64,000 nt of DNA from Halorubrum sp. PV6 (GTDB taxonomy: Archaea; Halobacteriota; Halobacteria; Halobacteriales; Haloferacaceae): assembly GCF_003990725.2 (NCBI RefSeq), contig NZ_CP030064.1:434001-498000 (forward strand), given 5' to 3'. Below are positions 3,989-6,518 of the stretch, in pieces. Position numbers and translations under genes: made by a program. A model generated the notes under the pieces. That model was not told the DNA's origin. It did not search any database and saw only the letters and a list, made by a program, of their open reading frames with translations. Position 1 is the stretch's first letter; each line of letters opens with the position of its first letter.

Positions 3989-6418
3989 TTACTTCGCGTC
4001 CGCGTCCTCGGCGTACGACTGAAGCTGTAACTCCGCGCTCTTGGTGAGTCGATCGAGTGCCGCATCGACGCCGTACTCGCGGGCCTCGACCGACGCCTCG
4101 GCGACCAGCGTCCGGACGGTGTCGAACGGCCCGATCCGAGCGCCGGTCGTGGCCGGCGACCGCTCGGTGTCGAGGAGCTGGTCTATCGCCGTCCGGTAAC
4201 CGGGGTTCTCGTCGAACCAGCCCGCCCCCGCGAGCCGGTCGACGGCGCCGTCGTGGACCGGGAAGTAGCCGGTCTCCCGGTGCCACCGCGCCTGCTGGTC
4301 CGGCGCCGCGAGCCACGCGAGGAACGCGGCGGCGGCCTGCTGTTCGTCCGTCGGCGCCTCGTCGGCGACCCACAGCGAGCCGCCACCGACGACGACGCCG
4401 TGGCGCTCGTCGGCCACCGGGAAGTACCCCGTCTCGACCGGGAACGACGCGCCCTCGTGAACGCCGACCATCGCCGAGGTCGACCCGATCAGCATGCCGG
4501 CGCGCCCGTCGTGGAACGCCTCTCTGGCCTGTCCGCGCGCCTCGATGCCCGGATCGTGGTACAGCCCGTCGGCCGCCATGTCGGCGATCCACTCGTACAC
4601 CCGCCGGCCGGTCTCGGTGTCGAAGTGCGCCTCGGTCGGCGTCCCCCCCCGCCCGTTGTTGGCGTCGACGAGGGGTTGGCCCGCCTCGGCGAACCACTGC
4701 TCGACGAACCACGAGTAGTTCGCGAACGTGATCCCGGCGTCGAGCCCGCCGCGGTCGACCAGCTGGGCCGCGCAGTGGCGCACCTCGTCGAACGTCGTCG
4801 GCGGGTCGTCCGGGTTGAGCCCGGCGCGCTCGAACGCCGCCCGGTTGTAGTACAACACCGGCGTCGACGCGTTGAACGGGAGCGAGTGGAGCCGGCCGTC
4901 GGTCCGGTAGTAGTCCGCGACGGGGTCGAGGAGGTCGTCCGGGTCGAGCGGCGTCTCCCCGAGCAGACCCGCTATCGGCGCGAACGCCCCGCTGTCGAGC
5001 GCGCGCTTCGTGCCGATCTCGTAGAGGTGTGCGATCGTCGGCGGGTCGCCGCGCTCGGCCGCGGCGAGGGTCGCGTCGAGGACCCCCCGATAGCTGCCCT
5101 TCGACGACGGTCGGACGGACACCCCGTCGGCGACCGACTCGAACTCCTCGACGAGGTCTTCGAGCAGCCGTGCCTTTCGCCCCCCGAGCGCGTGCCAGAA
5201 CTCGACGACGGTGGCGTCGCTCGCGTCGCCCCCGGCGAGGTCGTACGCGTCGAGTCGGTCGTCGAGCGTCCCGGTGCGATCGCCGAGCGTCGACGCGCCC
5301 GCGGCCACCTCCGTCAGCGACGTCTTCTGGGTGTGAGCGATCGTCGTCACCTCGGCGGCGTCCGCGGCGGTGTCCTCGGCCGAGGCGCCGACCGACTCGA
5401 CCATGTCGACGACCTCCTCGACCGAGGCCGCTTGGTCGTCGGTCGCGTCGCTTATCTCCTCGACGCCGCTCGTCGTGTCCTCGATGTCGTCGGTCAGGTC
5501 GGAGAACGCTTCGAGCGCGCTCTCTGCGGTGTCTATCCCCTCTCCGACGCGCTCGCGCATGTCGGTGATCTCCGCGACCGTCGCGTCGGTCTCGTCGCGC
5601 ACCGACCCGATCGATTCCTCGATCTCGCTCGTCGCGTCGCGGGACTCCTCGGCGAGGCTCTTGACCTCCTCGGCGACGACCTCGAAGCCGGCGCCGGCTT
5701 CGCCCGCCCGCGCCGCCTCGATGGAGGCGTTCAACGCGAGGATGTTCGTCTCGTCGGCGATGTCCCGAATGAGGTCGGTGACGTCTTCGATCGCGGCGAC
5801 CTCCGCCTCCAGCTCCTCGACGCGGTCGAGCGCGGTCTCCGTCCGCTCGTCGACCTCCTGTAGCTCCGCGATCGCCGCGGCGGCCGCCTCGTTCCCCTCG
5901 TCGGCGCGCGCGGCGACGTTCGCGGCCGTGGTCGCGACCTCCTCCGCCGAGGCCGCGACCTCCTCGGTCGCCGCCGAGACGCTCTGTAGCTCCTGGGTCG
6001 CCTCCGCGATGTCGTCGCGCTGGCGCGTCGCCGACGACTCGATCCCGTCGACCGCCTCGTACACGTCGTCGCTCCGGCGCTTCGCCTGCGACACGTTCGA
6101 CCGCACGTGCTCGGAGGCGCCGGCGACCTCGTCGCCGAACCCCTCGACCGCCGACAGCGTCTCCGTGACTCCCTCGACGAACGCGTTGAGGTCGCTCGCG
6201 AGCGCGGCGGTCGCCTCGTCGCCGGTCGCCTCGGGGAACCGGGCACCGAGGTCGCCGTCGGCGAGGCGGGCGGCGACCTCCCTGAACGCCTCGACCGGCA
6301 CCTCCTCGCCTGCGGTTCCCGTCGCTGTCTCGTGTGGTTCCTCGCCGTTCGCTCGCGCGCCGTTCTCGCGGTGCGGTTCCGGCTCGGTCGCTCGGTCACT
6401 CAGCCCGTTGCGATCCAT
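3989..6418 (-). CDS. Soluble chemoreceptor (MCP) fused to a UgpB-like solute-binding domain
   Basis: An 809-aa protein joining two families. Residues about 40-95 look HAMP-like. Residues about 95-390 are a long methyl-accepting chemotaxis coiled coil with the canonical tip [20 protein letters not shown] (near 220-245), which binds CheA/CheW. From about residue 400 to the end it is a family-1 extracellular solute-binding domain most like UgpB (glycerol-3-phosphate binding): [42 protein letters not shown] see no signal peptide and no transmembrane helix, so both halves should be cytoplasmic. That is odd for a binding domain normally outside the membrane. The start at 6418 was chosen because the upstream reading enters an AT-rich promoter-like region (about 6455-6480). 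The ligand is unknown. Confidence 0.92.
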
Positions 6419-6518
6419 TTGCCGCCCGTTTCGCGCGGGGCTACTTAACCGCACGAGACGAATTATCTCAGATAATAATTCCACCGCCCACCCGCCGCGT
6501 CGCGAGCGCGACAGTCGG

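Follow-up and report, generated by a model that had tools for sequence, protein, structure and literature searches.

The locus raises the question of what a haloarchaeal cell would sense with a chemoreceptor that carries, in the same polypeptide, a solute-binding domain of the type that serves nutrient import outside the cell. Such a gene lies in the window, by which we mean the whole 64,000-nucleotide stretch of Halorubrum sp. PV6 DNA that was analyzed:

3989..6418, minus strand: fusion chemoreceptor gene, a single open frame with start ATG 6418 and full-length orthologues

The 809-amino acid reading frame is uninterrupted, has no internal stop and is intact across dozens of orthologues sharing 43-86% identity. 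Because the frame is kept in these orthologues, a frameshift and an assembly artefact are both rejected as sources of the fusion, and an arrangement of two separate genes is ruled out on the same grounds. The earlier note, which described a methyl-accepting hairpin joined in one frame to a complete family-1 solute-binding domain and named a frameshift between two genes as one of the results that would overturn it, was therefore right about the gene. The start at ATG 6418 is backed by a TATA-like element located about 25-35 nt upstream and conserved in Halorubrum, with the sequence TTATATA in relatives and TTAAGTA in the PV6 window. A longer start at ATG 6586 was rejected; it would overlap rlmE and is not conserved.

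6440..6482, minus strand: promoter region, GATAATTCG element followed by the TATA-like TTAAGTA with leaderless-type spacing, conserved in Halorubrum orthologues (read by eye)

Elements resembling GATAATTCG or GATATTGG are present about 12-15 bp before the TATA box of the fusion gene, of other Htr genes and of one archaellin gene of the same genome. This recurrence, read by eye in 6440-6482 and in the upstream regions of loci L002, L004, L008 and L144, makes them a possible candidate for a motility regulon motif. In the intergenic regions examined, no palindrome shared by the fusion and the glp genes as a GlpR-type operator was seen; a perfect palindrome, ATTATCTGAGATAAT, stands in front of the fusion gene and is not kept in relatives.

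From the N- to the C-terminus, the protein consists of a disordered acidic tail, a weak HAMP remnant, a complete methyl-accepting hairpin, a flexible linker and a complete UgpB-type domain:

6302..6418, minus strand: residues 1-39, disordered acidic N-terminal tail (pLDDT <50) without signal peptide, Tat motif or membrane helix (maximal hydropathy 0.25)
6209..6298, minus strand: residues 41-70, weak HAMP-like segment (Pfam HAMP 19.6 bits against a cut-off of 25)
5237..6217, minus strand: residues 68-394, methyl-accepting signalling hairpin (MCPsignal at 178-343, 1.7e-39), helical in the model
5654..5746, minus strand: residues 225-255, hairpin tip, mostly invariant in 39 orthologues
5222..5269, minus strand: residues 384-399, flexible linker that joins the hairpin to the binding domain (pLDDT <50)
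3998..5227, minus strand: residues 398-807, complete UgpB-like family-1 solute-binding domain (NF008211 5.8e-68; pLDDT ~92; Z 54.6)

In the HAMP-like segment, G55, D56 and L57 are nearly invariant, and its 12-residue motif is present in most orthologues. The protein belongs to the MCPs by its signalling domain (Pfam MCPsignal, PF00015, residues 178-343, E 1.7e-39) and its conserved hairpin tip, both of which are present; the corresponding tip region of known MCPs contacts CheA/CheW. In the C-terminal part, Pfam recognizes SBP_bac_8 (residues 422-739, E 1.4e-38) and SBP_bac_1 (residues 419-710, E 2.4e-27). The predicted model draws the hairpin as one long unbroken helix and, for this reason, the inter-domain geometry in the model is uninformative.

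Among NCBIfam models, UgpB (NF008211) is by far the best for the binding domain (residues 398-795, E 5.8e-68); as its score of 229.5 bits does not reach the equivalog cut-off of 411, the domain is classified by sequence as UgpB-like and not as a curated UgpB. The best sequence matches in the PDB are the UgpB proteins of Phaeobacter and E. coli. The model of the domain (pLDDT ~92) superposes on E. coli UgpB 6X84 with a Z score of 54.6 and an rmsd of 1.3 Å over 403 residues, and also overlays 4AQ4 (Z 48.5) and 9LFF with G1P (Z 47.8), ahead of sugar binders. The resemblance to UgpB that had been proposed from the sequence is thus confirmed at a level below the equivalog cut-off, and the domain, whose failure to fold would have counted against the proposal, is confidently predicted to fold. 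No UgpAEC partner genes were recognized beside the fused loci examined, and since no exported UgpB relative reached E 0.001 in the PV6 genome, the receptor does not appear to depend on a UgpB importer.

The neighbours of the fusion, whose gene families were confirmed by HMM, point to glycerol. In Haloarculaceae, among them Haloarcula and Halomicrobium, a divergent glpC-glpB-glpA precedes the fusion, which has glpK 63-143 bp downstream, and a membrane protein and a Cdc6-like ATPase come after glpK. In Halohasta and Halonotius, glpK stands first, then the membrane protein, the Cdc6-like ATPase, the fusion and HPr; in Halohasta, PtsI and dihydroxyacetone kinase subunits come after HPr. Overall, glpK or glpA is found within ~3 kb of 16 of the 43 named fused loci, compared to none of the 8 loci encoding exported-type or fragment solute-binding proteins; glpK is also ~3 kb or less from the fusion in genomes G162 and G033. 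In Halorubrum including PV6, the fusion lies between the DHFR gene and rlmE, where most of the genus has it too, and it is not near glp genes, which is also the case in most Haloferax and a few others. The PV6 glp locus is intact elsewhere in the genome (L142), with glpABC-glpK and the glp-locus membrane protein, and CheW family genes (in two places) and archaellins are present as well. In the family search, GlpK was detected in every fusion-bearing genome (as a weak match in one incomplete MAG), and the fusion in none of the 20 genomes without GlpK, which belong to few genera.

Two other members of the glp locus were observed. The membrane protein that follows glpK is conserved (341-363 aa with 6-9 hydrophobic spans; L142:10423-11508, L097:7886-8977, L105:867-1892) and two copies of it gave no Pfam or NCBIfam family match at the thresholds used. 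Because a GlpF aquaglyceroporin occupies this slot in Halomicrobium (L096), the membrane protein may serve glycerol uptake without being related to GlpF. The Cdc6-like AAA+ ATPase, which probably ends in a winged helix, is always part of the locus (L142:11803-12969, L097:9040-10215) and may be a regulator, not a replication protein.

In Phaeobacter UgpB, G1P or G3P is held by Tyr64, Ser143, Ser266 and Tyr342 on the phosphate, by Glu88, Gly303 and Arg393 on the glycerol hydroxyls and by a Trp188/Trp191 clamp; the two Tyr and two Ser are described as strictly conserved among phosphate binders and as missing from glucose binders (PMC12718374). The equivalent residues in the fused proteins are:

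5090..5092, minus strand: Tyr443, equivalent to UgpB Tyr64 (phosphate), in 60/60 fused proteins
5018..5020, minus strand: Glu467, equivalent to Glu88 (glycerol hydroxyls), in 60/60
4865..4867, minus strand: Ser518, equivalent to Ser143 (phosphate), in 60/60
4718..4720, minus strand: Asn567, replacing Trp188 (first clamp Trp), Asn in 44 and Thr in 15
4709..4711, minus strand: Trp570, equivalent to Trp191 (second clamp Trp), in 59/59
4481..4483, minus strand: Ser646, equivalent to Ser266 (phosphate), in 59/59
4382..4384, minus strand: Gly679, equivalent to Gly303 (glycerol hydroxyls), in 59/59
4265..4267, minus strand: Tyr718, equivalent to Tyr342 (phosphate), in 59/59
4112..4114, minus strand: Arg769, equivalent to Arg393 (glycerol hydroxyls), in 59/59

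Eight of the nine glycerol phosphate contacts of UgpB are invariant in the fused set, and the full set with both clamp Trp is absent, the Trp188 position being Thr in some Halorubrum. With 70 of the 401 columns (17%) invariant overall, this is far above a random draw (4.7e-6, a significance that is overstated as family columns are not independent). The alignment supports a putative pocket of the G3P/G1P type, whose affinity or ligand size may differ from that of bacterial UgpB because of the Asn or Thr at the clamp position. Asn at this position is common to exported haloarchaeal UgpBs; Asn567 is therefore not in itself an adaptation to the cytosol, and the change from Trp188 to Asn probably predates the fusion.

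We consider it likely that the protein is a cytosolic chemoreceptor for the sn-glycerol-3-phosphate made by GlpK, with a relocated UgpB-type domain as its C-terminal sensor, and that it serves a metabolism-based glycerol taxis. Alternatively, the sensor would read sn-glycerol-1-phosphate, the lipid precursor that archaeal cells always contain, or a glycerophosphodiester released as lipids turn over, and report membrane-lipid status. With Asn567 in place of the first clamp Trp, the pocket could be more open. Furthermore, Phaeobacter UgpB barely separates G3P from G1P (0.80 vs 2.36 µM), the latter being bound nearly as well, and the Trp pair is a late gain that came after GPC- and dinucleotide-type binders (PMC12718374). 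We nevertheless regard a lipid sensor as unlikely: exported haloarchaeal UgpBs have the same Asn, the change probably being older than the fusion, and the neighbours belong to glycerol catabolism (GlpK makes and GlpABC oxidizes sn-G3P), not to lipid synthesis. The binding domain could also have no small-molecule ligand and be a structural or protein-docking part, for example for GlpK or GlpABC; loss of the ligand is known for some SBP-like domains of signalling proteins, and the adjacency of glpK and glpA would suit a partner protein too. This appears quite improbable, as eight pocket residues are invariant although the domains share 45-60% identity between genera, and as the fold overlays UgpB structures.

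In Kyte-Doolittle 19-residue windows, hydropathy reaches at most 0.88 in the whole protein, 0.25 at the N-terminus and 0.46 in the linker, compared to a reference of ~1.6 for membrane helices. Neither hydropathy nor N-terminal motifs revealed a signal peptide or a membrane helix in the PV6 receptor, in keeping with the topology that the earlier note had proposed subject to a check for a missed N-terminal signal or helix, and an exported protein was rejected on this basis. Exported haloarchaeal UgpB relatives start with a twin-arginine motif and then a lipobox-like GC, whereas the fused proteins do not. Orthologues from Halohasta and Halonotius have an N-terminal hydrophobic stretch (hydropathy 1.3-2.2) that may anchor them in the membrane. 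This stretch would suit a receptor anchored in the membrane or exported, with glycerol phosphate outside the cell as its signal, which we hold to be very improbable: Halorubrum, Haloarcula and most Haloferax orthologues do not have it, the tip that contacts CheA/CheW is conserved, and the linker maximum of 0.46 in the PV6 protein puts hairpin and binding domain on the same side even in an anchored protein. Since the tip of an MCP hairpin has to reach CheA/CheW in the cytosol, and since no hydrophobic segment separates the hairpin from the binding domain, the latter is cytosolic whether the protein is anchored or not. The hydrophobic stretch of Halohasta and Halonotius often ends in a GLFSRxWG-like motif, and Haloarcula orthologues begin with MSKWNPF-like motifs (N-termini at L092, L093, L103 and L105).

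The search for other fusions, left to be done by the earlier note, revealed that the fusion is common in haloarchaea: full-length orthologues are present in three families, Haloferacaceae, Haloarculaceae and Natrialbaceae, with carriers that include Halorubrum, Haloferax, Halohasta, Halonotius, Haloarcula, Halomicrobium and Halobiforma. The fusion is absent from many Halorubrum genomes. Plasmid records gave exported-type ABC solute-binding proteins or partial matches alone, none of which covers 80% of the query. In trees, the fused proteins form one clade for the binding domain and one for the hairpin (SH-aLRT 100 and 98.7, the hairpin tree including just six paralogues, all from the PV6 genome). 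Since each half forms a single clade, the fusion arose once and its halves were inherited together; a recent local fusion is ruled out by the same trees. In genome G165, the fusion gene (L141:7314-8417) carries an insertion with a DDE_3 transposase in the binding-domain half, and the remainder of the domain continues beyond it. A MAG fragment (L121:4968-6047) carries a binding domain that reaches 93% identity to a fused one and has no in-frame MCP part, probably through an assembly error or a frameshift. A chance fusion or a degenerating gene with a non-functional product, as the transposon-split relative and the many Halorubrum genomes without the gene might suggest, is scarcely credible in view of the single ancient origin and the conservation over three families. 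Whether an import binding domain was moved once into the cytosol early in haloarchaeal history, so that cells navigate by internal sn-G3P told from sn-G1P, appears to us evenly poised.

Combined, the eight of nine contacts, the UgpB fold, the lack of an export signal, the siting at glp loci in several genera and the presence of GlpK, GlpABC, CheW and archaellins in the PV6 genome bring independent support to a cytosolic G3P sensor. They also strengthen the suggestion, made from the sequence of this gene, of an internal metabolite sensor, perhaps for G3P, that feeds the archaellum; we infer the identity of the ligand, its affinity, lobe closure as the signal and the behaviour, including the sign of the response. 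In the proposed mechanism, glycerol would enter the cell and be phosphorylated by GlpK to sn-glycerol-3-phosphate, which would bind in the cleft of the two-lobed C-terminal domain and close it. Through the linker, closure would act on the hairpin at its C-terminal end, the resulting change would alter CheA activity via the conserved tip, and CheA would bias archaellum switching through CheY. The cell would thereby respond to glycerol by sensing its own catabolic intermediate.

Glycerol, which comes from Dunaliella, is a leading carbon source in brines, and no explanation of how haloarchaea find it was found in the literature searched. The family offers a named gene, a ligand class and pocket residues for this behaviour, and its place in an operon in Haloarcula allows metabolism-based taxis to be tested directly. 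If the proposal is true, the cell follows glycerol by how well it is metabolised, with a nutrient-catching domain whose usual site is outside the cell. The receptor would also show cleanly how a domain for extracellular import was recruited, a single time, as the sensor of a cytosolic protein. It raises the question of whether an archaeal protein can tell sn-G3P from its mirror image sn-G1P.

Both parts of this architecture have been recorded in general terms. The text of a 2022 survey includes SBP_bac among the sensor domains of archaeal chemoreceptors and describes cytoplasmic 'class V' archaeal MCPs with a C-terminal LBD (PMC9680633). The domain kinds and the topology class of the receptor are, as far as that text goes, already catalogued; the same text names no such family, ligand or glp linkage. 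Our literature search, including the text of PMC9680633, found no account of a haloarchaeal MCP-SBP fusion family, of its UgpB pocket or of a glp-linked chemoreceptor, and the architecture may have been listed before. Within these sources, the domain combination has been counted before in general, and no description was found of the orthologous family, its pocket and its siting at glp loci.

With UgpB of the UgpBAEC importer (E. coli 4AQ4/6X84, Phaeobacter 9LFF), the receptor shares the fold, ~30% identity and eight of nine ligand contacts. It differs in being cytosolic, in lacking an export signal, in its fusion to a chemoreceptor with no transporter partner seen and, compared to bacterial UgpB, in having Asn where the first clamp Trp would be. 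In haloarchaea, binding-protein chemotaxis through BasB/BasT and CosB/CosT was reportedly described by Kokoeva in 2002, as cited in PMC9680633. As in these systems, a binding protein is coupled to an archaeal Htr transducer; however, BasB/BasT and CosB/CosT consist of a separate extracellular binding protein and a transmembrane transducer, whereas the fused receptor is one cytosolic polypeptide with no separate exported binding protein docking on a transmembrane partner. Cytosolic haloarchaeal transducers are exemplified by Car, for arginine, and HemAT, for oxygen. Like them, the receptor is a soluble Htr that would sense an internal signal; unlike them, it uses another type of sensor domain and carries it C-terminal to the hairpin.
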